DNA of 64,000 nt from Ferrovum sp. (lineage in GTDB: Bacteria; Pseudomonadota; Gammaproteobacteria; Burkholderiales; Ferrovaceae), in the NCBI GenBank assembly GCA_010435995.1, contig JAAGNR010000022.1, forward strand, positions 1 through 64,000, read 5' to 3'. Within the stretch, counting starts at the first letter, position 1. Each line of letters begins with the position of its first letter. The translations under genes and the position numbers were made by a program. Of the stretch, positions 16,887-37,290 are shown piece by piece. The notes beneath the pieces are model-generated. The model was not told the origin of the DNA and did no database searches. It was given only the letters and a program-made list of their open reading frames with translations.

Positions 16887-16887
16887 C

Positions 16888-18656: not shown

Positions 18657-19101
18657 CAGGTTTCAGCCAACTCGGTGCTCGTCCATAGTATCTCTTGATC
18701 ATGGACTCCCCGATGATCGCACCGATCATGCCTGTTTCCATGGCAAGAATAATGAAAAAACCCCACCATCCCATGGGAATCAAGTGACCACCCTGGGGAA
18801 CTCCACTGATTTCAGCGATATTGAAATAACTGATGCCACGTACAATGAGCGGTGTCACATAACACAACCATTTGCTGCCCTTACCGAAGATAAGTGCGAG
18901 CACAAAATTGGCGATGAACGGTACCAAAAAAACGTCCAGCATCCATGAGAAAGTAAAATAGGAGAAGGGCCCGGTAAAGACCTCTATAGTCACCCCCAGC
19001 AATCGATCGCCAAAATGATTGATGACGGTCGCCACACTCAATCCAAAAAATCCCCGCACCCACTTTCCTGAATCTTTCTCTTGGGGAACAATGATGCTCA
19101 T
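18592..19101 (-). CDS. Multi-pass membrane protein, unknown
   Basis: 169 aa hydrophobic; overlaps both neighbours in operon. Confidence 0.7.
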   Translation of the reverse strand: MSIIVPQEKDSGKWVRGFFGLSVATVINHFGDRLLGVTIEVFTGPFSYFTFSWMLDVFLVPFIANFVLALIFGKGSKWLCYVTPLIVRGISYFNIAEISGVPQGGHLIPMGWWGFFIILAMETGMIGAIIGESMIKRYYGRAPSWLKPDGRARIDRSRAEQSKEGEGGA

Positions 19102-19595
19102 TTTTTATAATCATCCTTGCCAGTCAGCTTCTCATATTCACTCTTGCGAGTCTCTTCCAAATACCAATCCTTGACATGAAGACTGGCGAGATATTTTGCT
19201 AAAGTTCGACGCTCTTCTTCTGGAAGACTGGCAAAAGAGGGCATTCGGTATTCTGGTTTGAGTCGGCTGGGCAAAATGGATTGAGGAGCAGGGGATGAAA
19301 GGTAGGCATAGAGCCATGCTTCTGTACGCAAATCTCCCATGCCATCCAAGGACGGTGAAGGAACGGACTGCATGATGTTTCTCACCGACCATAAGGAATG
19401 GCATTGTCGACAATCATTCTCACGCACCAGATCGGATCCATGCCGTGCCAATTCAGGGCTTGCGGTAGTATAAAAAGGGATACCCTTATCTGCCGCAGGT
19501 CCCGTTGTTGGCCTTGAAAACAGTTGGTTTTGCACTACAGCCGCAATTGCCATCAAACCGATAATACCCAGTACGACCTTTTCCCCTCGCTTCAT
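19098..19595 (-). CDS. Membrane-anchored monoheme cytochrome c
   Basis: 165 aa; N-terminal TM, single CRQCH, distal YRMPSFASL Met ligand candidate. Confidence 0.88.
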   Translation of the reverse strand: MKRGEKVVLGIIGLMAIAAVVQNQLFSRPTTGPAADKGIPFYTTASPELARHGSDLVRENDCRQCHSLWSVRNIMQSVPSPSLDGMGDLRTEAWLYAYLSSPAPQSILPSRLKPEYRMPSFASLPEEERRTLAKYLASLHVKDWYLEETRKSEYEKLTGKDDYKK

Positions 19596-19909
19596 GTGGA
19601 TTTCGCTACCTGCTCGGCCTTTTGTGCAAGCAATTCACTGCGACGAGCTTCCTGCTTAGCTAGGACCTCGCGGCTTTTAGCATATTCTTCAGGGAGCATC
19701 TTATCTTTATCTTTTTCACTGAACACCAGATATTTGATATCTTCATCAAATTGCTCGTTCTTGGCCCCCCAGCGGATACCATAAATGCTCGCGCCGATAA
19801 TCAATCCGCCAACGATGAGCCATAGATAGATGGTCCAACCATCCGGTAAAGTCTCTATAAAATTTCCCATGCCATTTTCCTCGATATCATCGTAAAAGGA
19901 TTTTACCAC
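19592..19909 (-). CDS. CcoS-like oxidase assembly/small membrane protein
   Basis: 105 aa; TM followed by YGIRWGAKNEQFDEDIKYLVFSEKDKDKM, resembling CcoS (WAVxxGQFDDLxxxxxxxLFDDD); C-terminal coiled extension. Confidence 0.6.
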   Translation of the reverse strand: MVKSFYDDIEENGMGNFIETLPDGWTIYLWLIVGGLIIGASIYGIRWGAKNEQFDEDIKYLVFSEKDKDKMLPEEYAKSREVLAKQEARRSELLAQKAEQVAKST

Positions 19910-19997
19910 CGTACCCGTATTGGAAGCATATTAACAGGAAACGTTCCCCTTTCAGGGCGTAACATGATCAAATATCCCCCTGCCCGCCAGATATAGA

Positions 19998-20270
19998 CTA
20001 AAACAAATAGCCCGAGAGCATTTGCGTTGCTCCAAATATCACAGCCACAACCACACCCAATATGATGGCGATGAACATCAGCATTTCACCCACGCGCATT
20101 TTTTCTGGAGCATAGCGTCCCTTCATCAGGGCATAAATAATCCCAGAAAATACTCCGATTCCAATCATCAGGAAAATAAAAATCATGACACTGAAGCGCT
20201 GACTACGCATTCCTTCAATGCTCATATCTACATGCCCAGCTCCAAGGGCAATCATCACATCAGACATCAT
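19998..20270 (-). CDS. Small two-TM membrane protein, unknown
   Basis: 90 aa; two hydrophobic stretches; in oxidase operon. Confidence 0.6.
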   Translation of the reverse strand: MMSDVMIALGAGHVDMSIEGMRSQRFSVMIFIFLMIGIGVFSGIIYALMKGRYAPEKMRVGEMLMFIAIILGVVVAVIFGATQMLSGYLF

Positions 20271-20299
20271 GGTTACAGCCTCAACAGACGAATCGTTCT

Positions 20300-20332
20300 A
20301 AAAAAAAGTGCCATACCGCAATGGTATGGCAC
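20300..20332 (-). terminator. Intra-locus Rho-independent terminator
   Basis: Perfect 10-bp stem GTGCCATACC/GGTATGGCAC with 5-nt loop, followed on the minus strand by a run of T. Confidence 0.85.
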
Positions 20333-20389
20333 TATGACAGTATATTTTTTTCAACGTTCTATTTCATTCACACAAACGTACCGATTTCA

Positions 20390-20497
20390 TTATTTTTTGT
20401 CGAAGTTGTCCACAAAAAAACTGTAGAGAAAAGGAGCAATGAAAGCAATACTGATGGGCAATGCGATTGCCAGTGGGCCGTAATCTAAATCGATCAT
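20390..20497 (-). CDS. 35-aa membrane microprotein (CcoQ-like position)
   Basis: Manual translation MIDLDYGPLAIALPISIAFIAPFLYSFFVDNFDKK*; GGAG RBS upstream; below length cut-off of the ORF track. Confidence 0.6.
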   Translation of the reverse strand: MIDLDYGPLAIALPISIAFIAPFLYSFFVDNFDKK

Positions 20498-20528
20498 TCG
20501 TAAATACTCCTTAGTTAGGTTTCACTAG

Positions 20529-21146
20529 TCAATGATCGTGCTTTGGCTGCCAACTGGTGGGAGGCAGACGCTTAATCATGATAAACACGGACAAGAAGAA
20601 ATAACTCAGATAGAACAAGTCAATGGTATAGCCCTTGTCCCACCAGGGTTGCTGGCGAATGCGTGACCCATCTGCACGATAATTGCCCTCGAAATTGGCG
20701 GTAACGACTTTGTCTCCCACCACTTCGAAATCATGCATATGGGCACCTTTGGATTCTAGTGCCTTGATTTGAGGAGCTACGATCCGCAAATCATCCATGG
20801 TCAGTGGGTGACGCTCCAACAATGCATCATTGGGTGTTCCCTTGTTCATGGCCACAATCCGCGCCATCGCTTCCTTGTCATCCTTGGCAGCCAGGACTTC
20901 AGGCTTATCCATGGAATTGACGTAGGGTTCATACAGCGCTGCCGTAGGTCTTTGCCCCCACAATGGGAAAGTAATGGCAAAGGCAGTTACCACCGTCAAT
21001 CCCACCAACCAGACAACGGGAGCAGGAACAGGGTTGTTATCTTCATGTACCCCACCCAGATTATCATTCTCCCAGAGGACTTCATCCTTGCGTACTTTCT
21101 CTTCATCAGACAGTGTACGAAGGGGTGAATCAAATGACCAACTCAT
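20529..21146 (-). CDS. CcoP-like subunit lacking heme c motifs
   Basis: 205 aa; HEDNNPVPAPVVWLVGLTVVTAFAITFPLWGQRP typical of the FixP/CcoP N-terminus; no CxxCH; second TM at C-terminus. Confidence 0.78.
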   Translation of the reverse strand: MSWSFDSPLRTLSDEEKVRKDEVLWENDNLGGVHEDNNPVPAPVVWLVGLTVVTAFAITFPLWGQRPTAALYEPYVNSMDKPEVLAAKDDKEAMARIVAMNKGTPNDALLERHPLTMDDLRIVAPQIKALESKGAHMHDFEVVGDKVVTANFEGNYRADGSRIRQQPWWDKGYTIDLFYLSYFFLSVFIMIKRLPPTSWQPKHDH

Positions 21147-21213: not shown

Positions 21214-22173
21214 TTATTTGAGTGACAGAACGAAATCGATCAAAGCTCTGGCATCAGAATTGCTCGCGTACATGGGGACTTCAGGCGCTGTAATCCGCTT
21301 TCCTTCCACATACTCGTTGTATTCTGCACGCCATTGATCAAAGTTGATCTTTTGACCCTTAGCATCCACAGGGCCCCACAGATAGTCAAAGCGAGGCATG
21401 ATGGAGTGCGGCTGAACCAAACGTGGATTGAAGAAGTGCAGCATCATCCATTCACGAGAGGAATTCCGCGATCCCACATGAAGAATATCTGGAGCTTTAC
21501 GATCAGAGCCAAACGCTGTGGGTGATTCCCCATTAAAGTCGCCCAGCATAGGAGGCGCACCAAACACTTGCCAATCCTGGGTTTCTTCTGGCAGAAGTGT
21601 ATGGCACCACCAGCATCCTTCACGCACGAAAATGGATTTTCCATAAGAAGCATGGTAGGTATTCTCATCACCTGCCGCCTTCACTACTTCATCTGGAGTC
21701 CATCCCTTCGTTGCCGAAGCGTTTTCAATGTAGAACTGCTTGGTCCCATCACCTTGTGGCTCAGAATTCAGCACAAACACTGCGCCTTGTGCCTTGCTGG
21801 CTTCGCCAATCCGACCCTTGTCTTGGCTCAACTGTTCAACGATTTGCCCCAGGTTATCCGGATGATCCACCCCGTTAGGAAGTGGCGTGCCTGCAGGGTA
21901 AACATAGGCGGTGACTGGATTGGTCATGGGTTGCCCAGTTTTTGGATCCACCTTGAGGGTAACCCGAACTGGACGATTATCACCGCGCAGAAATGGGTCG
22001 GCCAAACTGAAACCCGACTCATGTCCTGCCCATAGCTGCTTATCCAGCGCCATCTCTGTAGCGTTCACATTTCTCAAATCGAAGCTGGGCATGAACAGGG
22101 TAATTGTCATGGAACCACCCAGAGCCAACCCAAAAAACCGCGCTCCGATCTTGTACTCTCTAAAATTGACCAT
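21214..22173 (-). CDS. ccoO: C-family oxidase CcoO-like monoheme cytochrome c subunit
   Basis: 319 aa; N-terminal TM; EGCWWCHTLLPEETQDW heme c site; immediately downstream of ccoN. Confidence 0.88.
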   Translation of the reverse strand: MVNFREYKIGARFFGLALGGSMTITLFMPSFDLRNVNATEMALDKQLWAGHESGFSLADPFLRGDNRPVRVTLKVDPKTGQPMTNPVTAYVYPAGTPLPNGVDHPDNLGQIVEQLSQDKGRIGEASKAQGAVFVLNSEPQGDGTKQFYIENASATKGWTPDEVVKAAGDENTYHASYGKSIFVREGCWWCHTLLPEETQDWQVFGAPPMLGDFNGESPTAFGSDRKAPDILHVGSRNSSREWMMLHFFNPRLVQPHSIMPRFDYLWGPVDAKGQKINFDQWRAEYNEYVEGKRITAPEVPMYASNSDARALIDFVLSLK

Positions 22174-22207: not shown

Positions 22208-23614
22208 TTAGCGCTCGTAGGCCAGCTCGTGTGCCATGCGACCTTCTGGAATGACTGTTCCTGCGCGTGCCGTCATCCACATGTTGTAGAGCCAGAAGCA
22301 GTTTCCAGTAAACACCAAGGAACCACCAATCCAGCGTGCAATCATGTAGGGATGCTCTGCCATCACCACATCGATATAAGGCACTTCATAAATCTTTCCT
22401 GCGCCTTGAATCAGACCGGCAATAGTCATGGAAACCCAGTAGGTAGTAAAGCCAATCAAGAGGAACCAGAAATGGAGATTACCCAAGGTCAACGAATACA
22501 ACTTACGCTTCAGCAAAGTTTGCAATCCCAGGTATACGGCGGCCGCTTCCAGGAATGTGGAGAACCCCAGCAACGCCAAGTGTGCGTGAGCTACGATCCA
22601 GCCCGTACCATGGATATACCAGTTGATAGCGCGTGTTTGCTGGAAACCACCTTGCATGTTCAGCGGAATGGCCATCAAGCAACCCGTTACGGTGAAGCGG
22701 ATTTCAAGGTTTTCCACAAACATGTTCCATTTGCCTTGCATGGTCAACAGAATGTTGGACACGAAAGCAACGGCGGGTACCAGAATCAGCACACCTTCCA
22801 CAGAGGCGAAGGATTTGAGCCACTCAGGCAAAGGAGCAGACATCAAATGATGAGCAGCGGGTGTGGAGTAAAACACCACGACGGACCAGAAATGCAAGTG
22901 CCCGATGCGGTGGGAGTACAGTGGGTTACCGGAAACTTTAGGAATGGTGTAGTAAGCAATAGCTGCAGCCACTGGCGTAATCCACAAACCCAACACATTA
23001 TGAGCAAACCACCAGGTCAGATAGGCTTCTGTCAGTCCGGTCAGATGGAAAAACTCTGGCAGATTTCCGACGATGAACACGATGCTGACCATGAATACGG
23101 CCGTACCGAAAAACCAGTTGGTGGTGTAGATCCCCTGAGTTTTACGATGAATAATCGTCATCCAGACATTGATCCCAAGGGGAATGGTCATGAATGTGGC
23201 GATATACAGATCGATGAACCAAGGAAAGTCTGAGTACTCACGACCAGAAGTCATCCCGGACCAGAGCAACGTCAACCCCAGAGACAGACCCACATTCCAG
23301 AGGAACGCGTTCCAGATCCCGAGTTTTTCCGACCACAACTTGGTGTTACCCAAAGCGGGGGTCATATACATCATGGCCATGGCAAACGCCATTGAAATCC
23401 AGCCAAAAATCACTGCATGAACGTGTACTTGGCGCATATGACCAAAGGACACAAACTCCAGACCTGTTACAAAATCAGGAAATGCCAGTTTGCTGGCGTT
23501 GAATGCGCCCAAACCAGTTCCGATCACAAACCATACAATTGCAGAGAAGCCAAAGTAAACGGCGGCGGCTCCCTGCGGTATATCTTCGCTTTTTGCAAAT
23601 AGGTACTTGAACAT
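22208..23614 (-). CDS. ccoN: C-family (cbb3-like) heme-copper oxidase subunit I
   Basis: VHVHAVIFGW, WWFAHNVLGLW, HFWSVVVFYSTPAAHHL, IVAHAHLALLGF; start set at MFKYLFAK with AGGGGGG RBS (ORF track begins at 23644). Confidence 0.93.
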   Translation of the reverse strand: MFKYLFAKSEDIPQGAAAVYFGFSAIVWFVIGTGLGAFNASKLAFPDFVTGLEFVSFGHMRQVHVHAVIFGWISMAFAMAMMYMTPALGNTKLWSEKLGIWNAFLWNVGLSLGLTLLWSGMTSGREYSDFPWFIDLYIATFMTIPLGINVWMTIIHRKTQGIYTTNWFFGTAVFMVSIVFIVGNLPEFFHLTGLTEAYLTWWFAHNVLGLWITPVAAAIAYYTIPKVSGNPLYSHRIGHLHFWSVVVFYSTPAAHHLMSAPLPEWLKSFASVEGVLILVPAVAFVSNILLTMQGKWNMFVENLEIRFTVTGCLMAIPLNMQGGFQQTRAINWYIHGTGWIVAHAHLALLGFSTFLEAAAVYLGLQTLLKRKLYSLTLGNLHFWFLLIGFTTYWVSMTIAGLIQGAGKIYEVPYIDVVMAEHPYMIARWIGGSLVFTGNCFWLYNMWMTARAGTVIPEGRMAHELAYER

Positions 23615-23677
23615 CTTGAACCCCCCTGTTATATCTAAAACCAAAAGACTGTTGAGCGAATATTGTTATTAGAATGA

Positions 23678-23832: not shown

Positions 23833-24108
23833 TTATGCTGCATTTTCAATGGCGTAATGCCGTTGAAATGCAATAGCCAGAATACCGATATAGGCAAAGC
23901 CGAATACCAGCATACACCAGTCAATAAACCCGGTGAATGTATGAGGATCGTAGGCCTGACCATTCCAGCCACCCCAGTCACCGAAGTCGCCGCGTCCCAG
24001 AAAGCACATCAGGGCTGCCCCAAACACACTCCCATTACCCATTCCGGTCAGCATACCTCCAACGATCATGACCCAGAATCCGCGTGAAATGATGGATTTT
24101 TTTTGCAT
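23833..24108 (-). CDS. Small two-TM membrane protein, unknown
   Basis: 91 aa; first gene of the minus-strand oxidase operon. Confidence 0.6.
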   Translation of the reverse strand: MQKKSIISRGFWVMIVGGMLTGMGNGSVFGAALMCFLGRGDFGDWGGWNGQAYDPHTFTGFIDWCMLVFGFAYIGILAIAFQRHYAIENAA

Positions 24109-24297: not shown

Positions 24298-25305
24298 TTA
24301 TGGCTTGATGACCTTGGTGCTTCGCAGCTTCGCTCGGACAATCAGAAATGCCATCACTGCGACGGATACGGTTACTCCAATATCAAAGGTTCCTGTCATG
24401 GGAAAATGGGGTGTTGGATAGGTTCCTGATATCCAGGTGTAGCGCTCGATCCAGGTCCCCGTCACGATGATACAGGCTATGGTAAATATGACTTTTGGGT
24501 TATGACGACTGAAAGGGAAGACCAGCGTGACGAACGGAATAATAAATTTCATGACGAAGAATGCCCAGAAAAGCGGACTGTAGTCACCGTACTGCATTTG
24601 ATAGATACGCCCTGTTTCTTCGGTGATATTTCCGTACCAGATGATCAGGTATTGCCCAAAGAAGGTGTAAATCCAGAGAATGGTGAAGCCCAGCATCATT
24701 TGTGCCAGGTAATTGAAAACCTGCAGGCGTATAGGCTGCTTGATCAATCCGGTACTTTGCAAGGTATACAGCAGTATCACAAATGAGGCGAGAAACATTC
24801 CTGACACACTGACGATATAGTTCACCGAGAACATTGAACTTTCCCAGTTTGGCAACAGTGTCATTTCAAAATCCCACGCCACCATGGTGCAGTAAAGCAC
24901 ATGAATAAAGGGAATGATTGATGCTAGAATTTTAAATCTTGCCATGTTTTCGGGAGATTGTTCAGAGGTTTTCTGCATTCTCACAAAGGCACCATACGCA
25001 ACCCCCACCACGATGATCCCGGCAATTTCTCTTACACGCAAGAATTTCAGGTTATTCCATTTGGGTAAATGTTCAAATGAGCCCACCCATGGAAACGTCA
25101 ATTCTCCACCGAAGAGCAGAATCAGAAGCAGTACAACGGCCAAGGGGTAAAGCGCAAAAAATGCCACGGCGATATGTCGAACTTCATAGCGCCACTTGGC
25201 ATTCACCAAGTGCAACAGGCAGGGTAACGCCACTCCGGCAAGACATAGATGGAGGACGATGAGAAAATCCACGGTCAAAACTGACCAACTGGCGAATGGA
25301 ATCAC
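24298..25305 (-). CDS. actF: Alternative complex III membrane subunit ActF
   Basis: 335 aa, about 10 TM; last gene of actABCDEF order. Confidence 0.85.
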   Translation of the reverse strand: MIPFASWSVLTVDFLIVLHLCLAGVALPCLLHLVNAKWRYEVRHIAVAFFALYPLAVVLLLILLFGGELTFPWVGSFEHLPKWNNLKFLRVREIAGIIVVGVAYGAFVRMQKTSEQSPENMARFKILASIIPFIHVLYCTMVAWDFEMTLLPNWESSMFSVNYIVSVSGMFLASFVILLYTLQSTGLIKQPIRLQVFNYLAQMMLGFTILWIYTFFGQYLIIWYGNITEETGRIYQMQYGDYSPLFWAFFVMKFIIPFVTLVFPFSRHNPKVIFTIACIIVTGTWIERYTWISGTYPTPHFPMTGTFDIGVTVSVAVMAFLIVRAKLRSTKVIKP

Positions 25306-25325
25306 GGGACAGCTCCTTTTTCAGC

Positions 25326-25874
25326 TTACTTATTCTCTGTGGTGGTGACTTCGCGTTTTTTAGCGGTAGGATCGGACAGCAGTCCATGGCGCACATAATT
25401 GACCACATCCCAACGCTCGGAAGGAGACATATCATTGCCATAGGATGGCATCAGTGCTCCACCAAAACTGATGTGTCCCCAGATATATCCTTCTGGAACT
25501 TCTTTTTGTACCCGTTCTGCCGTCAAATCAAAAGGGCGTACGATCAGCTTTTCTCCCACCAACCCATCTCCGGTCCCCGAATCTCCATGGCAGGGAACAC
25601 AGTAAATCTTGAACATTTCCCGCCCATTGGCCACGGATTTGGCTGTAGCTGGATTGGGGTTCGGCAAAGTCATGGCCGCGTCCCCGTCATGCACATAAGG
25701 CGTGGTTGGCGTTCCTGTCATGGGAACTGAGCGTTCAGGAAAGGGTCGTACAGAATCTGGGCCTTCCTGAGGTTTGACGCTGATCTGATTCGCCATGTCC
25801 TTACTCCATGGCCATGCCATTGCCAAAGAGGGAAGCAGAGCCAGAAGTGGTATCCAGCGAAGTGAGGATTTCAT
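25326..25874 (-). CDS. actE: Alternative complex III monoheme cytochrome c ActE
   Basis: 182 aa; signal peptide, YCVPCHGDSGTGDG, MPSYGNDMSP. Confidence 0.9.
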   Translation of the reverse strand: MKSSLRWIPLLALLPSLAMAWPWSKDMANQISVKPQEGPDSVRPFPERSVPMTGTPTTPYVHDGDAAMTLPNPNPATAKSVANGREMFKIYCVPCHGDSGTGDGLVGEKLIVRPFDLTAERVQKEVPEGYIWGHISFGGALMPSYGNDMSPSERWDVVNYVRHGLLSDPTAKKREVTTTENK

Positions 25875-26398
25875 CGTGCGTTATCTCCCATGATTTCGAG
25901 AGGCTTGTGACGGCCAAGAATTTCATTAATTTGCGGTAAAGATGCGGGATCGGTCTTGACCAATATGCCGATCTTATCTTCGGACACGCTGGCGTTATAC
26001 AGAGGACTCCGATTACCGGGTAGCTTCATGGCCACAAAAGTAGACAACACGGTCATCAGCACTCCCGAAAGAATGAAGAGCTCGTAGGTCAATACCATAT
26101 CAGGTGGGAAAGGAACTACGGGGCGACCTCCTCGTACCTGATAGATGAAACTGGCCTGGGCTGAGGCAATCAGCACCAACCCGGTGGTCGGCCCGAGCAA
26201 TACACCCAGCAGGGTAAACCACTGGATATATACGGGCCGAGGTCCCAGAAGCTCGCTCAGTTCCGGATGATCGATAGGCGATTTAATGATCACATCATCC
26301 ATCCTGAAACCTGAAATTCCTGATGATTTGAGATCTTTAAGGGCATTGGCCGCTTCATCCGGATCGGAATAAAGTGCCAGCGTATGTGTTTTTTTCAT
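25871..26398 (-). CDS. actD: Alternative complex III subunit ActD (DUF3341-like)
   Basis: 175 aa; ALYSDPDEAANALKDLKSSGISGFRMDDVIIKSP, two TM. Confidence 0.88.
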   Translation of the reverse strand: MKKTHTLALYSDPDEAANALKDLKSSGISGFRMDDVIIKSPIDHPELSELLGPRPVYIQWFTLLGVLLGPTTGLVLIASAQASFIYQVRGGRPVVPFPPDMVLTYELFILSGVLMTVLSTFVAMKLPGNRSPLYNASVSEDKIGILVKTDPASLPQINEILGRHKPLEIMGDNAR

Positions 26399-27867
26399 CA
26401 GATTTTCCCCCCATTCATTTCAGGTATGGCACCCAATGCAGTCTGATGCGCTGGTGCCTGAGCTCCGTGGAGTTTGTCATGCATGTTTTGCTCATGGACC
26501 ATTTCCTTGACTTCGTACATGGACACGCTGGGAAAGATCTTGCAGTAAAGCATAAATAGCATGGTGAACCAACCAAAACTACCGGCAACGATTCCCCACT
26601 GGACCCAGCTGGGCCACCATCCTGCAGTCCATGTCCATGGATAGTGAGATTTGGCGAAAGTGGGGGTAATGATCTGGAAGCGTTCCAGCCACATACCGAC
26701 ATTCAGGATCAGGGAAATTATGAGGAGAACTACATAATTCTGACGCACAAAGCGAATCAACAAAGTAAAAGGCATGACCATGGCGCAGAAAATCATTCCC
26801 CAGAATTGCAGCGCATAGTCCCCCGTAGCACGGTATACCAAATCCTGCCGCGCAACTTCATCACTGCCATACCAGGTCGTGGCATATTCGATCAGATCGA
26901 GATATGTCCACACCATGGCAATGGCGAAGGTCATTTTGATGAGCTTGTTGAGAATGGGTTGTGTCATATAGGCTTCAAAGCGAAACACATATCGCAACAC
27001 GATGAACAGCGTGATAATCCCAGAGCATCCCGAATACAAAGCACCCAGAACAAAGTAGGGAGGGAATGAGGTGACATGCCATCCGGGGTTTTGGGACACA
27101 GCAAAATCGGTGGACACGATGGAGTGGACGGACACTGCCAGAGGCATCAGAAAACATGCCATGGTCATATAGGCCACCTTGAAATTGCCCCACTGACGAT
27201 CCGTACCTTGCCACCCTAAGGACAGAAACTTATACAGGGCACGCCGTGCTCCCTTGGCATTATCGCGACAAATGGCCAAATCTGGAATCATCCCCATATA
27301 TAAGAATAGTAACGATGAAGTCAGATAGGTTCCAATGGCCGTGGCATCCCATACCAGAGGCGAAGTAAAGTTGGGCCATACCCAGCGCTCATTGGGATAG
27401 GCCACCACATAATAAAATTGCCATAAACGGCCCATGTGCACTAAGACGAACAATGCGGCCGTCATCAGCGTAAAGGTGGTCATGGCCTCAGAGTATCGGT
27501 ATATGGGTTTACGCCAATCAGCATGAATGATGTGCAGCAATGCCGACAGCAAAGTTCCGGAGTGTCCCATACCTATCCAGAAAATGAAGGTGGCAATATA
27601 CAGACCCCACACCTGCGGATTATTTAGATCAGAAACTCCCATCCCTGTCTGGTACTGATACACCTCGCAATAGACCCCAAATGAAAACAGGGCCAAGGCC
27701 GAAAAGAAGATAATCCAAAATGCAGGTCGCGGCTTTTCCAGACTGCGCAGCACATCTTTGTTGATCTGCGCCCAATTGACATCCTCTCCCAAATCTTTCT
27801 GTTTAGGAACAAACTTTCTTTCTATTTGCACATCCATCTGTGGATGGCTAGGTACAGTATGACTCAT
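26398..27867 (-). CDS. actC: Alternative complex III quinol-binding NrfD-like subunit ActC
   Basis: 489 aa, about 10 TM; FWIGMGHSGTLLSALLHIIHADWRKPIYRYSEAMT. Confidence 0.93.
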   Translation of the reverse strand: MSHTVPSHPQMDVQIERKFVPKQKDLGEDVNWAQINKDVLRSLEKPRPAFWIIFFSALALFSFGVYCEVYQYQTGMGVSDLNNPQVWGLYIATFIFWIGMGHSGTLLSALLHIIHADWRKPIYRYSEAMTTFTLMTAALFVLVHMGRLWQFYYVVAYPNERWVWPNFTSPLVWDATAIGTYLTSSLLFLYMGMIPDLAICRDNAKGARRALYKFLSLGWQGTDRQWGNFKVAYMTMACFLMPLAVSVHSIVSTDFAVSQNPGWHVTSFPPYFVLGALYSGCSGIITLFIVLRYVFRFEAYMTQPILNKLIKMTFAIAMVWTYLDLIEYATTWYGSDEVARQDLVYRATGDYALQFWGMIFCAMVMPFTLLIRFVRQNYVVLLIISLILNVGMWLERFQIITPTFAKSHYPWTWTAGWWPSWVQWGIVAGSFGWFTMLFMLYCKIFPSVSMYEVKEMVHEQNMHDKLHGAQAPAHQTALGAIPEMNGGKI

Positions 27868-27919
27868 GGTTAACTTTTCCCTGAATGGTGGTGATCGTCA
27901 ACGATTATTTTGGATCTCA

Positions 27920-28768
27920 TCACGACGCCATATTGCGCAGTCTTTCCAAATACACAATGGATGGATAGGTGTTCAGGTCTTCCAAAATACGGTATCCGCG
28001 AATCCCGTCCTCGGTTTTTTCCTGAACATTCTTAGCCAGATCCACTTGTTGTGTTTTCCACATTTTCGCGACCTTCGAGTTTTTATCTGCCAAATTACCA
28101 AAAGTTATGGCTGAGGTTGGGCACGCTTGGGCACAGGCCGTGACCACTTCTCCATCGGCCAGAATTCTTCCATCTGTCTTTGCCTTGTCCATTCCGGCGC
28201 GCAATCGTTGCATACAGAACGTGCACTTTTCCATGACGCCTTTACTGCGTACAGTTACATCAGGATTCAGTTGGAGCTCGAGAGGATTGGGCCAAGCGCG
28301 TTCAGGGTAATTCCACCAGTTGAAGTAACGCACCTTGTAGGGGCAGTTAGCAGAGCAATAGCGCGACCCCACACACCGGTTATACACCTGAGTATTCAAC
28401 CCATCGGGCGAATGGTGGGTTGCTCCCACAGGACACACGGGTTCACAGGGAGCGGCTTCGCACTGCTGGCACAGCATGGGCAGATACTGGGCCCCACGCT
28501 CTGGAAATTCGGTTTCCAGCGTTTCCCCTTCTCCCCAGTAACGTTCGATCCGGATCCAGTGCATGGCATGCCCTTTACCGAACCGTTCCTTACCCACTAC
28601 GGGCAAGTTGTTTTCGGCATAACAGGCCACGGTGCAGGCATTACAACCGATACAAGAATCGAGATCGATGACCATAGCCCACTTGTAAGGAGAGTCGTCA
28701 TACTGACCTTCGTAGGGGCGACGCGTCCGAAAGTTGCTCCAGTTTTTAATGAGATTACTGAGTGACAT
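27920..28768 (-). CDS. actB2: Alternative complex III iron-sulfur subunit (ActB FeS half)
   Basis: 282 aa; DSCIGCNACTVACYAENNLP, CQQCEAAPCEPVCPVGAT, CVGSRYCSANCPYKVRYFNW, CTFC...CAQACPTSAI. Confidence 0.93.
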   Translation of the reverse strand: MSLSNLIKNWSNFRTRRPYEGQYDDSPYKWAMVIDLDSCIGCNACTVACYAENNLPVVGKERFGKGHAMHWIRIERYWGEGETLETEFPERGAQYLPMLCQQCEAAPCEPVCPVGATHHSPDGLNTQVYNRCVGSRYCSANCPYKVRYFNWWNYPERAWPNPLELQLNPDVTVRSKGVMEKCTFCMQRLRAGMDKAKTDGRILADGEVVTACAQACPTSAITFGNLADKNSKVAKMWKTQQVDLAKNVQEKTEDGIRGYRILEDLNTYPSIVYLERLRNMAS

Positions 28769-28770
28769 GC

Positions 28771-30978
28771 CTAGATCTCCTTGGACAGTTTGGCTTGGTC
28801 AGCATCCAATGTGGCTACGAGTTTATGGCCATTCTGGAAGTTGGTAGGGCCTTCATCTTTCACGACATTCTGATTTTCACCCGTTTTACGCAGGGTAACC
28901 CGTGTCGCATGAAGCGCCAATTCACCGGTATGTGCATCAAATACGGGGTCCAGAATCTTATAGGGGTTGACGCCTACCCCCGTAGCGAAACGCCCTAGCT
29001 GGGTATGTCCCTGCCCTAGGGGCATAGACACGGTATCGGGCTGAATTCCCGGAAAAATATAGGCGACTGCGCGAACCGACCCTGTAGCGGACTGCACCAC
29101 AAGCACATCTCCTTCTCTGATTTGCATCTCAGCAGCCGTCTTCGGATGAATTTCAACCCAGCTGTCCCAGACGATGGTGGTCATGGTCTCCGGTGATTCC
29201 TGCAACCAGGGTAGATAAGCATGGCGCCCATCGCGCATATCCGGACGCACCGATGGTACGAAATAGAAGGGATAGTCTGCCTCCAATCCGCGGGGTTTCG
29301 GCACTTCCAGAAGTGACAGTTTGGCCTCGAGCGCGGTCGGCTTCCCTTCCCATTTGATGACCCCTTTACGCAGGGCATCTTCCCAGAAATGATCATCGCT
29401 GTCGGTCACCTTAAACACAGGTTTGGCTTTAACCACAGCGGTTTTGATGTAACTATAATAATCGGGGAAAGCTGTGTAGGAATCGGGTTTCCGCTTCTTC
29501 AGAATATCCAGCAGGATATCCCCAAATCCACGGGATTCAGGATAGAGTTTCTCCATCAAGGGTTGCTGTACCATCAACTCCACCCCGTTAGGCTGATAAT
29601 CCGCCACATGGGTCCCAAAATCCTCCATCGCCGACAATAAGGGCAAGACCAAGTCGCAGTTTCCTGCCGTCTCATCCAAATGCGTGACAAAGGCAACCTT
29701 GAACGGCACCTTTTCCATGCTATCTGCAAAGGGCAGGTTGGACGGTGACGTAAATACCGGGTTGGTACCGTGAATCAACAACGCCTGACACTGACCGCTG
29801 GCCATTTGTTCATGCAACTTGGCCAAGGCACGATAACCCCCTTGCAGCGGAGCGAGTTGCGGGAAGGGATGCTCTGCCTGCCCTTCGATGGTTTTACCCC
29901 GATTGGCCAAAATCACATTCAGCAATTGAATGGCGACCACGTTACTGAAACCATAGGCATGCCCTTCAGCTCCTGGGCCAGCGATCACCAAAGAGGGACT
30001 ATTGTTCCACAATTGGCCGGCAATCAGATGGACAGCGTCGGCGCCAATCCCCGTGATCTCGCTGACCGAAGCCTGATCGTACTGTTTAACCAGGGCATGA
30101 ACTTCATCTGGCACCCCCTTGGCAAATTCTTCATGTTGCAGAAGATCATGGGCAATACCCAAAGCCAGAATTCCTTCGGTTCCCGGTTTGATGGGATACC
30201 AGCGGTCAGCATTGCCGCCTGTCAAGGTCATGCGTGGCTCGATTTGAATCAGTGTTCCACGCGGGGCTTTGCGGAACTTGGCATATTGAGCCGCCATGTG
30301 CACGGGTGATACCCCGGCCCCCAGAAAATCATTACCAAAGGACAAGATCAACCGAGCTTTATCAATATTCAACAAGGGCTGCTCTGCCCCCAAGACTGCT
30401 TTGCTGGCTGCCTGACCCGTGACCCGTGAAATGGCGTCATATAGCACATGGTGAGTGGAATCGTAGCTCTCCAGGAAATTTTCCAGGAGCACCCGCTGGT
30501 GACCACTGATATCTCCAGTCAAAAATGCGATCTGGTCCCCTTTCAAAGTACTGGTCGGCCCCAGACGCTGCTCCAGCATCTGAGTCGCTTTATCCCAGGA
30601 TACGGGGATCAAGCCTCCTTCACTACGCATCATGGGTGTGCGCAAACGATCGGGATTATAATGAGCTTGCACCGCAGCTTGGCCCAATCCACAAATTTTT
30701 CCGGCACTGATAGCTGATTCGGGATTGCCCTCCAGCTTCAATACCCGACCTTCCCGCACCTTACCCATGATGCCGCACCCCGACCCGCATTGGGTACAGG
30801 TAGACGCGTAAAACACCCCGATTCCAGGCACCACAAAATCCTGTGGTTGCACATAAGACATCACTTCTTCAACGCCCGATTCAATAGCCGTATTGCCACA
30901 ACCAGCAAGGGTTGCTGCCGCACCGCTGATTCCCAGTACCCGCAGAAAATCCCGGCGATCCATGTTCCCCATACTCAT
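28771..30978 (-). CDS. actB1: Alternative complex III molybdopterin-oxidoreductase-like subunit (ActB N-terminal half)
   Basis: 735 aa; Tat-like MDRRDFLRVLGISGAAATLAGCG; STCTQCGSGCGIMGKVREGRVLKLEGNPE...KICGLGQA. Confidence 0.93.
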   Translation of the reverse strand: MSMGNMDRRDFLRVLGISGAAATLAGCGNTAIESGVEEVMSYVQPQDFVVPGIGVFYASTCTQCGSGCGIMGKVREGRVLKLEGNPESAISAGKICGLGQAAVQAHYNPDRLRTPMMRSEGGLIPVSWDKATQMLEQRLGPTSTLKGDQIAFLTGDISGHQRVLLENFLESYDSTHHVLYDAISRVTGQAASKAVLGAEQPLLNIDKARLILSFGNDFLGAGVSPVHMAAQYAKFRKAPRGTLIQIEPRMTLTGGNADRWYPIKPGTEGILALGIAHDLLQHEEFAKGVPDEVHALVKQYDQASVSEITGIGADAVHLIAGQLWNNSPSLVIAGPGAEGHAYGFSNVVAIQLLNVILANRGKTIEGQAEHPFPQLAPLQGGYRALAKLHEQMASGQCQALLIHGTNPVFTSPSNLPFADSMEKVPFKVAFVTHLDETAGNCDLVLPLLSAMEDFGTHVADYQPNGVELMVQQPLMEKLYPESRGFGDILLDILKKRKPDSYTAFPDYYSYIKTAVVKAKPVFKVTDSDDHFWEDALRKGVIKWEGKPTALEAKLSLLEVPKPRGLEADYPFYFVPSVRPDMRDGRHAYLPWLQESPETMTTIVWDSWVEIHPKTAAEMQIREGDVLVVQSATGSVRAVAYIFPGIQPDTVSMPLGQGHTQLGRFATGVGVNPYKILDPVFDAHTGELALHATRVTLRKTGENQNVVKDEGPTNFQNGHKLVATLDADQAKLSKEI

Positions 30979-31004
30979 ATCAATCTCCTAAATTGGCCGC
31001 CGTA

Positions 31005-31619
31005 TTATTTGTGACAAAGCCAGCAATCGTTCGGGCCGTGGCTGGTGACCGTGCTTCCCACCTTTTCCAGATGGTCTTTTTCGTGACAGCTGATACACCA
31101 CCCCATGGACAGAGCCTTCACACGTCGCGCCGTGGTCATGGAGGCAATATATCCGTGACAATAACCACAGGTTTCACGCACCGGCCGTTTTTCCTGAAAG
31201 TAGAACCGCTGAATATGGCGCTCATGATTAAATCTGACGAAATCCGGAAGATCATGCACTTTTTTCCAGGGAATAGGCTGCTTGTTCGCCCAATATTCGA
31301 ACAATTTCTTGATGCGAGGACGATCTTTCACCCCTTCAATCAAATTATGGCAACCCATACATTTGTCCAAACGCGGAATTCCGGAAACATTGCTGCGACG
31401 AGCATAGGTGTGACAGTACATGCAGTTGATTTGCATGCGGCCCGCATGGGTATTGTGGGGAAACTCGATGGGCTGTTCCACAACCGGGCCCAAGGCGTCA
31501 TAACCATCACTGGTCTGCGATCCAATGGGACCACCCTGAACAAAGGGCTCGGCAGAAACCAACGAAGTTCCAATAACAATTAGAAACATCCAGACAAACA
31601 GTTTTTTGCAATAATTCAT
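31005..31619 (-). CDS. actA: Alternative complex III pentaheme cytochrome c ActA
   Basis: 204 aa; five CxxCH motifs (CMYCH, CMGCH, CGYCH, CISCH, CWLCH). Confidence 0.95.
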   Translation of the reverse strand: MNYCKKLFVWMFLIVIGTSLVSAEPFVQGGPIGSQTSDGYDALGPVVEQPIEFPHNTHAGRMQINCMYCHTYARRSNVSGIPRLDKCMGCHNLIEGVKDRPRIKKLFEYWANKQPIPWKKVHDLPDFVRFNHERHIQRFYFQEKRPVRETCGYCHGYIASMTTARRVKALSMGWCISCHEKDHLEKVGSTVTSHGPNDCWLCHK

Positions 31620-31944: not shown

Positions 31945-32250
31945 TTATTTGGGTTTTGCGACAAAGCCGTTGCAATAACAGGTTGGGCAAATTTCATCGT
32001 CCCCAGGATACAGTTTGCATCCGTGAACTGCGCCTGCATCGGTTGGCTTGTCTTTGTTAGGGATAAAGTTCATGCAACGATTGCACTGCTTTTCCCCATT
32101 GGGGTGATTCTGGAAATGCAGAGCTGTACGCACACCGGTATTCTGTTTGGCAAAAGCGGTGGTGGTAAAGCCTGTCATGGGTGCAGCAACGATGGCGATG
32201 GTGCCCATCTTGAGCAACTGACGACGCGATTGTTTGATTTCATTTTCCAT
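31945..32250 (-). CDS. High-potential iron-sulfur protein (HiPIP/Iro)-like, Tat-exported
   Basis: About 101 aa; SRRQLLKMG Tat motif; QCNRCMNFIPNK...GCKLYPGDDEICPTCYCNGFVAKPK; GGAGGGG RBS. Confidence 0.85.
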   Translation of the reverse strand: MENEIKQSRRQLLKMGTIAIVAAPMTGFTTTAFAKQNTGVRTALHFQNHPNGEKQCNRCMNFIPNKDKPTDAGAVHGCKLYPGDDEICPTCYCNGFVAKPK

Positions 32251-32439
32251 GTTGTAACCCCTCCAGATCAATAATATGTTTTAGGTTAAACTACTTTTTT
32301 ACAATATAAACAAATACATGGCCCAAAAAAAAATATAGCGAAAACTGACCATGTGTGTAGCGTATCGCCCCTTTTTCCGAATGTCAAGTAGACCACCTGA
32401 CGCCGGACCCAGCGACCACCTGGGGTTACTAGAAAAATT

Positions 32440-32644: not shown

Positions 32645-33385
32645 ATGCGTAAGTCACTCACAAAGATCACATCCGGGTTGGCGCTTGCCGCTACCTTGGT
32701 TAGCTTGGGCGCCTTGGCCAATGAAGAGGGGGTCATGAATGGTGATCCAGCCAACGGCAAGAAAATCTTTACCGAAGGGAAAGGAGCCGCTCCTGCATGC
32801 ATGACTTGTCATGGAGAAGCAGGATGGGGTACAGAAGCCATGGGGGCTCCTCGCCTCAACAATCTCGGCTTTCCCTATATTGTCAAACAACTGACCGATC
32901 TGGCCGAAGGTCGCCGCACACCTTCCGGCGCAGGAGCAGTCATGCCTCTGTTTGCACAGCAACTGACGGAACAGGATCGGCGCGATGTTTCCGCTTACGT
33001 CAATTCCCTTCCGGAAGATCCTAAGGACCTTTCTGACTTGCAGGCGATCAAAGACAGCGGTCAACCCATCGGTACCCGTTATCTTGGAGAAATCCTGGTG
33101 AAGTATGGCGTGGATGGCAAGGTTTCAGCATGTCAGTCCTGCCATGGTTTCAATGGACGCGGAGCTGCACCCGTGTTTCCGGTCATCGGCGAGCAGAAAT
33201 TCACCTATCTGGTCAATCAGTTGCACAACTGGCGTGATGCCAGTCGTGCCAATGACCCTTATGGCATGATGCGTGCAATTGCCAAAAACTTGACAGATGA
33301 TGATATCCTGAACGCTGCGACCTACTTGGCCACTGCACCTCGGACCACAGAAGGAAACTCACGCGTCCCCAACACAACCCGCTAA
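32645..33385 (+). CDS. Diheme cytochrome c4-like protein
   Basis: 246 aa; signal peptide, CMTCHGEAG and CQSCHGFNG. Confidence 0.92.
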   Translation: MRKSLTKITSGLALAATLVSLGALANEEGVMNGDPANGKKIFTEGKGAAPACMTCHGEAGWGTEAMGAPRLNNLGFPYIVKQLTDLAEGRRTPSGAGAVMPLFAQQLTEQDRRDVSAYVNSLPEDPKDLSDLQAIKDSGQPIGTRYLGEILVKYGVDGKVSACQSCHGFNGRGAAPVFPVIGEQKFTYLVNQLHNWRDASRANDPYGMMRAIAKNLTDDDILNAATYLATAPRTTEGNSRVPNTTR

Positions 33386-33425
33386 TCTTCCTGGTTTCAG
33401 GTTTCGATCAACGGTTGATGTTCCC

Positions 33426-33464
33426 AAAAACCCGCGTGCCTTGTGCTCGCGGGTTTTTTATTTA
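33426..33464 (+). terminator. Rho-independent terminator
   Basis: AAAAACCCGCG...CGCGGGTTTTTT. Confidence 0.85.
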
Positions 33465-33483: not shown

Positions 33484-34062
33484 ATGAATTTGAAATCGTT
33501 GAAGCTGGGTGAAAAGATTCTTTTTGGAATCTTCGGCCTGTTGTGCATATTTGCGGTTGTCAGCTTTATCATGCTGGAGGTCTACCGCTCCCATCTGAAC
33601 CATCCCATGTACCCCAATACCACCCATTTTGACTTTACTGCTGAAGGCAAGGTGGGTTCCGAACTTTTTCGCGAAAAGGGTTGCCCGGATTGTCACCGTG
33701 CCCTGCGTAACGGCACCAACCATGGCGTCATTCTGGATGGAATTGGCTCAAGAAAAAGTATCGACTATATCGAAAAATTTCTTAAAAAACCGGAATCCAC
33801 TTATGAAACCAAAACGGTGGATCATGGTCTCAATAAGCAAGCGGCATATGTGGCCGCACTACCTGATAACGAAATTCATGCCATAGCGATTTTCCTCTCA
33901 GAGCTCAAGGCGACCCAGGGGTCGGCAGATGCCCGCCTTCCCATGCCAGAAAGATCCGGTTTTGTGGATGAGATGGTAAAAGTATGGGCACCGAGCTCAT
34001 GGAAAGGAGAATATCGCGATTTGCGTGAGGAAGCTCAAAACCCATCCAAGGAGAAACCTTAA
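33484..34062 (+). CDS. Membrane-anchored monoheme cytochrome c
   Basis: 192 aa; N-terminal TM, GCPDCHRAL; architecture similar to 19098-19595 product. Confidence 0.88.
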   Translation: MNLKSLKLGEKILFGIFGLLCIFAVVSFIMLEVYRSHLNHPMYPNTTHFDFTAEGKVGSELFREKGCPDCHRALRNGTNHGVILDGIGSRKSIDYIEKFLKKPESTYETKTVDHGLNKQAAYVAALPDNEIHAIAIFLSELKATQGSADARLPMPERSGFVDEMVKVWAPSSWKGEYRDLREEAQNPSKEKP

Positions 34063-34064
34063 GA

Positions 34065-34574
34065 ATGTCTTCACAGTCCGCTTACGATGTACGAATCAAT
34101 GATCCTGTCTACACGACCTTCACGCTATTGTTTGTATATGCGTGTATCACTTATGCCATCATTGGTTTTTCCTGGGGGGCGCTGATGGGAGGCATCCCTG
34201 CCTTTAGAATGTTTGTTGACTCTGCTCCACACGGCCATTTGATTCTTTTGGCCCACGGTCACATCAACCTTCTGGGTTGGGTGGAAATGGCGATTTTTGG
34301 CGCCATCTACTATTTCGTACCACGTCTGGTCAACCGTCCTATTTACAGCCTCACACTGGTCAAAGTTCACTTCTGGATGCACAATGTTGGACTGATGGGC
34401 ATGGTGGTGCTGTTTTCCATTGCCGGTAGTATCGGGGGATATGACCCCGGACCAGACATTGAAAAAACTGTCACTCATTTGATGGCTGGTGTGGGGTTTT
34501 TTGGGACTTTGGTACTCTTGGCCAATATCATCTGGGGCTATAATATTTTCAAGACTGGCAAACAAGGAGCATGA
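34065..34574 (+). CDS. Mini heme-copper oxidase subunit I-like membrane protein (N-terminal helices only)
   Basis: 169 aa; PHGHLILLAHGHINLLGWVEMAIFGAIYYFVPRLVNRPIYSLTLVKVHFWMHNVG; no CuB/helix X motifs. Confidence 0.75.
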   Translation: MSSQSAYDVRINDPVYTTFTLLFVYACITYAIIGFSWGALMGGIPAFRMFVDSAPHGHLILLAHGHINLLGWVEMAIFGAIYYFVPRLVNRPIYSLTLVKVHFWMHNVGLMGMVVLFSIAGSIGGYDPGPDIEKTVTHLMAGVGFFGTLVLLANIIWGYNIFKTGKQGA

Positions 34575-34578
34575 CGTC

Positions 34579-35106
34579 ATGAAGCGACAGCGTGTGCGAT
34601 CCTGTGCAGGGATATTTGCCACCATTACTATATTGACTCTGGGTGGATGCGGAAACCAGCAGATGGGACTGGCCGTTGGCAGTGTGGCTCCGCGTCTACC
34701 CACCAAAACCCTGGATGATGTCGGAGGGGATCTGAGTCGTATGACCACCTACCGCCAACCGGATGAACGGATGTATCAGTATTCCCTTGACAAAGCCCTA
34801 GCTACAGGTAAGCCCATTTTGCTCGAATTTGCCACGCCAGGCCACTGTTCGGTATGCGATCGACAATTGCAAATCACCAAAGCCATGCTCGACAAATATC
34901 AATCTCAGGTATTGTTCCTGCATATGGATCAATATGAAAATCCCGAGGCTTTCAAAACCTATCGCGTTATGGGAGACCCTTGGACTTTTGTCATTGATAG
35001 CAAGGGAATTGTCCGTTATGAACAGGCTGGCCCCATGCTCTACCGTGAAATGGATTCTGCCATACGGGCCGCACTGCCTTCGAGCAAACAGGCATCGATC
35101 AATTAG
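34579..35106 (+). CDS. Thioredoxin-fold lipoprotein
   Basis: 175 aa; lipobox TLGGCG, LLEFATPGHCSVCDRQLQ, VMGDPWTFVIDSKG. Confidence 0.82.
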   Translation: MKRQRVRSCAGIFATITILTLGGCGNQQMGLAVGSVAPRLPTKTLDDVGGDLSRMTTYRQPDERMYQYSLDKALATGKPILLEFATPGHCSVCDRQLQITKAMLDKYQSQVLFLHMDQYENPEAFKTYRVMGDPWTFVIDSKGIVRYEQAGPMLYREMDSAIRAALPSSKQASIN

Positions 35107-35130: not shown

Positions 35131-35586
35131 ATGATCAAAAAATTTAGTTTGAAACAGGACCGTCAGGGAATGATCTGGGATTTACTGCTGTATATCCCGA
35201 CTGTCACGGCCCTGAGTGCTTTTGCGGCCAACGCATGGTATGGGGAAAATCCAAATTTGGCATATCTCCTGGTTTTCCTTGCCACCTTTTTCTTGATTGC
35301 GGGAGCGAATCGCGTGCTTAAAACGCGCATGATGTTGCTTCCAAGCGCGCCTATTGGCATTGAAGCCGACTCCCAAGCACCGTGTGTCAGAGTCCTGCTG
35401 AAAAACGCTCAAACACAGGAAATGATTAAAGACATCAAGGTATTCAAGGACTATTCTGGGCGTTCCATCGGTTTGACCGGAATAGATGGCACTGGAAAAC
35501 GGTTACAATTCATTTTCCACAAAGGCCAATTTTCCCTTGAAAGGGATTACCAGACCCTTCAGGATATGTTCAATAAAAAATCTTGA
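35131..35586 (+). CDS. Two-TM membrane protein, unknown
   Basis: 151 aa; two TM then soluble beta-rich domain; operon with mini-subunit-I and thioredoxin-like genes. Confidence 0.65.
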   Translation: MIKKFSLKQDRQGMIWDLLLYIPTVTALSAFAANAWYGENPNLAYLLVFLATFFLIAGANRVLKTRMMLLPSAPIGIEADSQAPCVRVLLKNAQTQEMIKDIKVFKDYSGRSIGLTGIDGTGKRLQFIFHKGQFSLERDYQTLQDMFNKKS

Positions 35587-35620: not shown

Positions 35621-35821
35621 TCAACGGCGACGGCGGATGACGTCCCATGCCATAAAGCCGATGACTCCTGCCACTACGGTACAAGCCAAGCCCATATAAC
35701 GATATTCGCGCTCTGGTGGCACCAACCCCCCCACCAGCATATGTACGGTATAGGCCGTCAAAAATAAGGAACTCAGTGAGACGACCACATATACAACGGC
35801 TTCTCGCAGGGGAATTTTCAT
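35621..35821 (-). CDS. Small two-TM membrane protein
   Basis: 66 aa; overlaps the stop of the upstream 490-aa gene. Confidence 0.55.
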   Translation of the reverse strand: MKIPLREAVVYVVVSLSSLFLTAYTVHMLVGGLVPPEREYRYMGLACTVVAGVIGFMAWDVIRRRR

Positions 35822-37290
35822 TTGACGGGATCTCCGGGAGCGGGCGGGGCAGGTTCATCCAAAGTCGGTGCCACAGCGGCGGGCGCAAGATCGGGCTTAC
35901 GAATCTGCAACATGACCCCCCCTGGTTGAAGTGACACCGTCTCCACTTCATTGCCCAATACCGACAAGTTCTGGGTCAAACCCAAATTAGCTGGAGTGGT
36001 CGGCACCATGATCAAATGGGTCAACCCCTTCATCATGGCCAATTGAGCGGGGCCATCCTTGGCTGCCGGAGGCAAGGGTAAAGCATCACAGCGACAGGCC
36101 AGCATGGTGCGTGCAGGCCATTGACTGGCCACCCGAATGCGCGGATCCGGCAAATGCTGTATTTCTGCTTCATGCCGTACTTGTTCTACCGTCACAGCCA
36201 TGGTGCGAATGAGCTCATCCTGAGCAGTCAGTTGCAATTCACGACCCAGTTCGAACCACCCACGATCTGCATGCATGCTCACGGAGGAGACCACAAAAAC
36301 CGCCGCCAAAACCCACCCCCTCTGCGCCATGAAACCTAATTTTGAGTGGCCCAGTTGGAGCATCCAGGGTAGCCCTGCATAGAGCAAAACCGTCACCGCC
36401 AGGAAAATGAAGGTTCCTTGCCCTTTGAAGAGACTAATCAACAGACCGACCCAAAGACATTGTCCCAACAACGATTGAAATAATATCCGACGTTGGTGCA
36501 ACACCACTGTCGCCAACAAAAGCATTAAACCTAAGCCCCCCAGCCAATCCATAAGGGACAATTCACTGTCAAACTCATGGAAATGGCCCCAAAGCATCGG
36601 CAATTCTTGAAGAGGATTATGGAACCAACCGCCCCCACCCCAACCCCACCTTAACAAGAGTGCGATCAGCGTAAAAATACCCAATCCTATAAAGAATAAG
36701 CGCTGCTGTATGGGAGTAACAGGATTTTTATACCAGGACCAGGCCAGCAGCAGAGGGTACGCCAAGCCTGCAGGGTCAAGACTGACAGCAAACCAGGCCA
36801 AACCCAGTTGTGCGAAATAGCTGCCGCCCAATACCCGTGGTGACTGACGATAACTACGATCGAGCCAGAACCCCCCCATGAAAGAAGCCAATACCCCGAT
36901 ACCCACGGATAAGTGATCGATCTGCCACAGCGTCACCGGTAAAATCAGCAACAACCCCGTCGCCAGCAATGCCGCTTCTTCCTTTCCCTCTTCTTCGGAC
37001 CAACGGTATAGCCCCCAGGCAGTCGCCGCCATCAAGGCTACCATGACGCCTTTGGCGGCCATCACTTGCCCCGGCCATAGAAATCCCAGAGGAAACCACA
37101 ACAAAACCCGAAAATCGGGAACTCCAAGGGTCACTACCGAATTGGCCACATGATCTGCCATAGACCAATCCAGCAATAACGCTTTGGCCGCCTCTTCTTC
37201 CACTCCATAGGGACCCCGGCGCAGAAGCAAAAAAGCCGCCACGCTCCAGACCAACAATACGAGCATGCCCCACTGACGCCTGTCCAACAT
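35818..37290 (-). CDS. Polytopic membrane protein (glycosyltransferase-C-like), unknown
   Basis: 490 aa; about 10 TM, C-terminal soluble domain. Confidence 0.65.
   Translation of the reverse strand: MLDRRQWGMLVLLVWSVAAFLLLRRGPYGVEEEAAKALLLDWSMADHVANSVVTLGVPDFRVLLWFPLGFLWPGQVMAAKGVMVALMAATAWGLYRWSEEEGKEEAALLATGLLLILPVTLWQIDHLSVGIGVLASFMGGFWLDRSYRQSPRVLGGSYFAQLGLAWFAVSLDPAGLAYPLLLAWSWYKNPVTPIQQRLFFIGLGIFTLIALLLRWGWGGGGWFHNPLQELPMLWGHFHEFDSELSLMDWLGGLGLMLLLATVVLHQRRILFQSLLGQCLWVGLLISLFKGQGTFIFLAVTVLLYAGLPWMLQLGHSKLGFMAQRGWVLAAVFVVSSVSMHADRGWFELGRELQLTAQDELIRTMAVTVEQVRHEAEIQHLPDPRIRVASQWPARTMLACRCDALPLPPAAKDGPAQLAMMKGLTHLIMVPTTPANLGLTQNLSVLGNEVETVSLQPGGVMLQIRKPDLAPAAVAPTLDEPAPPAPGDPVK

Follow-up and report, generated by a model that had tools for sequence, protein, structure and literature searches.

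The gene studied here lies in a 64,000-nucleotide stretch of a Ferrovum sp. contig, referred to below as the window, and codes for a small membrane protein (here called mini) that resembles part of subunit I of the heme-copper oxidases. Its reading frame starts with ATG, encodes 169 residues and is intact, and the sequence that an earlier, sequence-only reading of this DNA had quoted is present in it. The start codon is located 2 nt after the end of a gene for a membrane-anchored cytochrome c (CytC), and genes for a thioredoxin-like lipoprotein (Trx) and a further membrane protein (MP) follow (Table 1). A related gene, copy 1, is found in the same respiratory island; both copies are intact, as that reading had stated, and their products share 39% identity over about 100 residues.

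Table 1. Features of the window in the order of their coordinates
Feature	Position	Strand	Characteristics
Copy 1, single-arc COX1-like protein	11587-12111	+	HAHMNLVG motif; beside ccoG/SCO genes
Genes co-located with copy 1 in relatives	12112-14244	-	two proteins and a CcoG-like polyferredoxin (12940-14244)
Remaining distal cbb3 cluster	18592-21146	-	
Membrane protein gene of the distal cbb3 cluster	18592-19101	-	
Cytochrome c gene of the distal cbb3 cluster	19098-19595	-	
Weakly FixS-like gene of the distal cbb3 cluster	19592-19909	-	
Further genes of the distal cbb3 cluster	19998-20270, 20529-21146	-	
CcoO-like subunit	21214-22173	-	monoheme
Distal-type CcoN	22208-23644	-	full length; three pseudo-repeats
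Small membrane protein preceding ccoN	23833-24108	-	conserved beside ccoN
ACIII genes	about 24298-31619		between the copy-1 and copy-2 groups
Diheme cytochrome c4-type protein	32645-33385	+	Cyc1/FERRO_02680-like by position; first gene of the conserved group
Likely intrinsic terminator	33425-33464	+	between the cyt c4 gene and CytC; strong hairpin, then T-run; z -4.9
CytC, membrane-anchored monoheme cytochrome c	33484-34062	+	CxxCH in 76/76 homologues
Mini (copy 2), single-arc (four-helix) COX1/CcoN-like membrane protein	34065-34574	+	invariant H64/H66; profile, fold and alignment
Trx, thioredoxin-like lipoprotein, ResA/DsbE-like	34579-35106	+	CxxC in 79/79 homologues; lipobox Cys24
MP, membrane protein	35131-35586	+	predicted two-helix hairpin, seven-strand beta domain and C-terminal helix

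Mini matches the Pfam family COX1 (PF00115) with 49.2 bits (E 4.7e-13), i.e. above the curated cut-off of 34.8 bits, which confirms the subunit-I-like character proposed earlier, and the same family is matched by 62/62 of its homologues at E up to 1e-3. The match covers profile positions 309-405 of 436 only, and the score against the CcoN equivalog model TIGR00780 (39.3 bits) is below the cut-off of 583.15 bits. PF11070 (DUF2871) matches 34 of the 62 homologues at E up to 1e-3 (best 3.5e-6) and does not match the mini protein of the window. Subunit I of the heme-copper oxidases is a pseudo-threefold repeat. The AlphaFold model of mini (pLDDT 92, pTM 0.84) contains four long helices (residues 14-43, 58-88, 96-126 and 130-166) rather than the twelve of the oxidase core, and its top PDB matches are CcoN chains, with TM-scores of 0.77-0.79 normalised to the whole of mini, followed by NorB and aa3 subunits I. 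A one-arc fold is thus shared with CcoN (PDB 3mk7, 6xkw, 9g83, 8smr). A profile built from the 62 homologues matches the CcoN protein of the window three times, at residues 28-133, 190-254 and 331-458, with 26.6, 15.3 and 52.0 bits, respectively; note that the bit scores are the proper measure here, since the E-values come from a very small database. Three stretches are also matched in several other CcoN proteins. The best alignment is with the C-terminal third of CcoN, including the HxH of helix X and the YS...HFW segment. Distal and proximal CcoN score about equally on this third arc (52-58 bits), and about 100 aligned positions at 20-35% identity are too few to resolve an origin of mini from it. 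As modelled, mini amounts to a single, whole repeat (arc) of four helices from the heme-copper oxidase fold, as compared to the three arcs and about 475 residues of CcoN. The word "truncated", which the sequence-only reading had used for this architecture, is therefore misleading, as it suggests a decayed gene and not a complete repeat.

Two histidines, H64 and H66, are invariant (62/62 homologues). In the alignment they fall on the HxH of CcoN helix X (IGHVHSGALGW), which we take to be the ligands of heme b3 and of the low-spin heme b, as in the P. stutzeri enzyme. The pair is kept in copy 1, in copy 2 and in other single-arc proteins, and the positive-inside rule (R87, R91 and K100, in the region of the loop between helices 2 and 3) suggests that it is near the periplasmic side. 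The helix-X HxH is the only ligand motif found in the alignment; the heme and CuB ligands of helices II, VI and VII are absent. Unlike CcoN, mini thus has neither the helix-II heme ligand nor the CuB ligands, and it cannot form an O2-reducing site alone. Further invariant residues, W72, E74, K100, H102, W104 and N107, are not ligands. The distal CcoN of the window has an HxH in helix II as well (QVHVHAVIFGW); canonical CcoN proteins have a single histidine there (LHTNAVIF).

Mini is under strong purifying selection. Comparison to its nearest counterparts in Ferrovum gave dN values of 0.042-0.049 and dS values of about 1.9-2.3, the latter near saturation, and hence a dN/dS of about 0.02. This bears out the selected function claimed by the sequence-only reading and excludes relaxed selection (dN/dS near 1). 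The protein is present in more than 100 genomes, and since it is kept there at this low dN/dS we consider its match to COX1 as far beyond chance. The best-matching named relative is Ferrovum myxofaciens P3G (94% identity in mini), the others being Ferrovum and Ferrovaceae MAGs. This places the source of the window among the acidophilic iron oxidisers of the Ferrovum family. Outside Ferrovaceae the median identity to the window copies is 64.7% for mini, 63.2% for CcoO, 49.7% for CytC and 47.9% for MP, and the value of mini also exceeds that of most small subunits. Five genomes belonging to another genus of the same family (G012, G017, G022, G026, G029) gave weak subunit-I-type matches and no mini ortholog; the ccoN of one of these (G012) is of another type, with 29% identity. 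There is also a Ferrovum MAG (L028/L080) in which mini is split into overlapping frames that correspond to residues 1-54 and 55-168, either by a frameshift or by an assembly error.

The partner genes are less easily assigned. A PDB profile search with CytC returned generic cytochrome c matches, including weak ones to ACIII subunits; a clear homology to NorC, CcoO or CcoP was considered and rejected, as nothing beyond the cytochrome c fold was found. Trx stays below the cut-offs of the curated ResA/DsbE models, with weak matches such as 23.9 vs. 359 bits, and MP has no Pfam family and no significant PDB fold match. The likely terminator upstream of CytC suggests that CytC, mini, Trx and MP form a separate or attenuated transcript; a simple consensus promoter/terminator scan, in which the hairpin is absent, was uninformative. 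Two neighbours of the group are worth recording. A polytopic protein of 490 residues without a Pfam match (35818-37290, minus strand) is a conserved neighbour, present at >70% coverage in 59/80 loci. The HiPIP-like gene at 31945-32271 (minus strand), which corresponds to FERRO_02670 by position, has no Pfam HiPIP match, only an implausible one to Med16_C.

Named genomes supplied 80 loci, and 72 of them have cyt c4 - CytC - mini - Trx - MP in this order and in the same orientation, so that the four genes do occur together across genomes as anticipated. The eight exceptions are mostly contig ends, with two split or frameshifted reading frames and one locus without a detectable MP. Genomes with the module include Ferrovum, Gallionella, Sideroxydans, Ca. 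Nitrotoga, Ca. Tenderia and other gammaproteobacterial MAGs. In a further family (f78, which presumably belongs to Zetaproteobacteria) and its relatives, CytC - mini - Trx - MP is present in 11/11 checked loci besides that of the window. A small-subunit gene and ccoN directly follow MP in 25/80 loci, while ccoN is found within the fetched flank in 39/80 and copy 1 in 12/80. The sequence-only reading had proposed a four-gene set that may be an undescribed electron-transfer or assembly module. The conserved order stands, and the functional description remains a fair one; the set is not a free-standing unit, being part of a larger cluster with cyt c4 upstream, the distal cbb3 genes downstream or close by, and copy 1 together with ccoG/SCO.

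Presence and absence of mini follow the distal oxidase closely. Among 121 Gallionellaceae genomes, 39 have mini, and 37 have a distal ccoN that is 83-88% identical to the one of the window; both are present in 37 genomes, mini alone in 2, ccoN alone in 0 and neither in 82 (p 4e-29). In other words, mini is found in 2/84 of the genomes without distal ccoN (G119, G195). Copy 1 is present in 36 of the 121 genomes, all of them among the 39 mini-positive ones. In a phylum sample of 399 genomes there were 47 with mini and 42 with distal ccoN, 40 being common to both, and in the 338 high-quality genomes of this sample (at least 90% complete, at most 5% contaminated) the two sets are identical, with 24 genomes. 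Many of the genomes are MAGs, in which single absences are weak evidence, a concern that the high-quality subset meets. The p-values overstate the evidence since the genomes are not independent; the pattern nevertheless spans several families and classes. Proximal cbb3 oxidases, which have about 30% identity to the distal ones, occur without the module. Co-occurrence and gene order taken together indicate that the module is a dedicated part of the distal cbb3 system, and we are rather confident that mini is dedicated to this oxidase.

The surroundings of copy 1 and of the cbb3 cluster contain a few more genes that deserve mention. Formylglycine-enzyme-like proteins of the FGE-sulfatase/SUMF kind flank the two groups: the one at 17538-18656 matches PF03781 (E 2.7e-52) and is also located beside the cluster in two relatives (L039, L041), and the one at 9788-10561 was called from sequence resemblance alone. 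An 894-residue polytopic protein with a spermidine-synthase-like domain (14241-16925, minus strand) lies inside the ccoG/copy 1 group and is kept in the same two relatives.

It is useful to compare these features to systems that are already known. Proteins with a single COX1-like arc are already known as such: DUF2871 (PF11070) and other proteins of this kind, about 120-155 residues long, have a size similar to mini, a single arc and the HxH..L.G motif, but the DUF2871-like examples inspected are located outside cbb3 clusters. Such proteins were also seen in unrelated neighbourhoods in other Burkholderiales (L035:3344-3808, L036:3116-3580, L037:3151-3570, L038:2889-3473). The NorB/NorC pair (4xyd, 3o0r) likewise combines a membrane-anchored monoheme cytochrome c with a protein of the heme-copper oxidase fold, and mini matches part of NorB by fold and sequence. 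However, NorB is a full, 12-helix catalytic subunit, and CytC has no specific match to NorC. The distal cbb3/Cyc1 clusters of Ferrovum JA12 (FERRO_02510-02750), Sideroxydans ES-1 (Slit_2657 region), Ca. Tenderia and Mariprofundus are apparently the same as the cluster of the window. They were described as containing subunits I and II without subunit III, a Cyc1-like cytochrome and a HiPIP (PMC4725956, PMC8788666, PMC5371394), and in the case of Ferrovum JA12 the co-localised cytochrome was suggested to replace the missing subunit III (PMC4725956). Earlier papers also divide the cbb3 oxidases into distal and proximal ones and describe, for the distal cluster, a Cyc1 homologue and how it is expressed (PMC8788666, PMC7029218, PMC10734462). 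In Ca. Tenderia a non-canonical complex IV ranks among the genes with the highest expression, and the region that holds Cyc1 is syntenic with Mariprofundus (PMC5371394). The searchable text of PMC4725956, PMC8788666 and PMC5371394, which treats ccoN, ccoO and the cytochromes, does not mention the single-arc protein, and a literature search gave neither a named single-arc heme-copper oxidase protein of this kind nor a strict link to the distal oxidase in openly readable text. The module is thus not undescribed as regards the surrounding cluster, which is partly covered by these papers, but mini itself has no name in their searchable parts.

Our best explanation, which we put forward tentatively and at somewhat less than even confidence, is that mini belongs to the distal cbb3 oxidase as a dedicated accessory component and forms an electron-input arm with CytC; that it is specifically a heme-binding electron-input subunit is a little more doubtful. 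We speculate that mini resides in the inner membrane with its HxH near the periplasmic face, where it would bind heme b. CcoN uses helices II and X for its low-spin heme; by analogy, the heme of mini would probably be bis-histidyl, bound between neighbouring protomers or shared with copy 1 or CcoN. Together with the membrane-anchored CytC, mini would constitute a small b/c arm that takes electrons from the periplasmic, Cyc1-like cyt c4 and hands them on to CcoO/CcoN. The arm would stand where canonical enzymes use the diheme CcoP, which appears to be absent in Ferrovaceae, and the CxxC lipoprotein might keep the cysteines of heme or copper sites reduced during maturation. We favour such an arm for the following reasons. 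Firstly, the HxH is kept even though no O2 site can form. Secondly, the mini gene is coupled to that of a membrane cytochrome c. Thirdly, the conservation of mini is subunit-like, i.e. equal to that of CcoO. Finally, CcoP (TIGR00782, cut-off 179.95 bits) gave no match above cut-off in five Ferrovaceae genomes, four of which are 99-100% complete. There are points that count against the heme-b arm: retention of the HxH could be structural, the Trx-like gene and the position of copy 1 beside ccoG and SCO point equally to assembly, and CytC offers no homology to NorC or CcoO that goes beyond its fold. A further point is the split mini of the Ferrovum MAG, which might however stem from faulty assembly of the sequence.

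The main rival reading, to which we give roughly one chance in three, is that mini acts as a dedicated assembly factor. In this case mini would pair transiently with nascent distal CcoN, or bring heme b to it, and leave before the enzyme is mature, its partners being MP, CytC and the CxxC lipoprotein, which would reduce heme c or CuB sites. The invariant CxxC of the ResA/DsbE-like lipoprotein next to mini fits this role well, copy 1 is located beside known oxidase assembly genes, and strict co-occurrence suits an assembly factor as well as a subunit. On the other hand, conservation at the level of CcoO is what one would sooner expect of a subunit, as is the close coupling to a membrane cytochrome c, and we know of no generic cbb3 assembly factor (CcoS is an example) that resembles subunit I.

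It is rather unlikely that mini is a structural or regulatory membrane subunit without heme, e.g. a packing arc to stabilise an oligomer of CcoN or a supercomplex: retention of the full arc fold and the many invariant non-ligand residues would agree with this role, but not the fact that single-arc proteins keep both helix-X histidines though no catalytic site is possible. Slightly less probable still is an electron-transfer subunit of the distal cbb3 oxidase in which single-arc proteins, either as an oligomer or as copy 1 with copy 2, form a subunit-I-like ring with a bis-histidyl heme b between protomers. If true, such a ring would preserve to this day, in several chains, the ancestral unit that gave rise to the three-arc oxidase. 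A component of ACIII is very improbable. Even though the ACIII gene product ActB1 is found in 37/39 of the mini-positive Gallionellaceae, 28 of the 65 ActB1-positive genomes (out of 121) have no mini, in G111 mini and distal ccoN occur although ActB1 is absent, and outside Ferrovaceae mini clusters with ccoN and not with act genes. Both the ActB1 distribution and the gene neighbourhood thus disfavour this role, and the module is tied to the distal cbb3 oxidase, less to the neighbouring ACIII. A functionless, decaying fragment of a duplicated oxidase gene, which coverage of only one third of subunit I might suggest, is rejected as having practically no likelihood, given the dN/dS of about 0.02 and, in >100 genomes, the intact frames and conserved operon.

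The gene set that contains mini is probably an overlooked part of the respiratory machinery of iron and nitrite oxidisers that have a distal cbb3 oxidase. This enzyme serves as a terminal oxidase both in major iron oxidisers (Ferrovum, Gallionella, Sideroxydans) and in the nitrite-oxidising Nitrotoga. Mini, a strongly conserved single arc of subunit I with a strict link to it, is probably a missing component on the route that leads from Fe(II) or nitrite to oxygen. Mini also offers a natural test of the idea that a four-helix unit gave rise to the core of the heme-copper oxidases.
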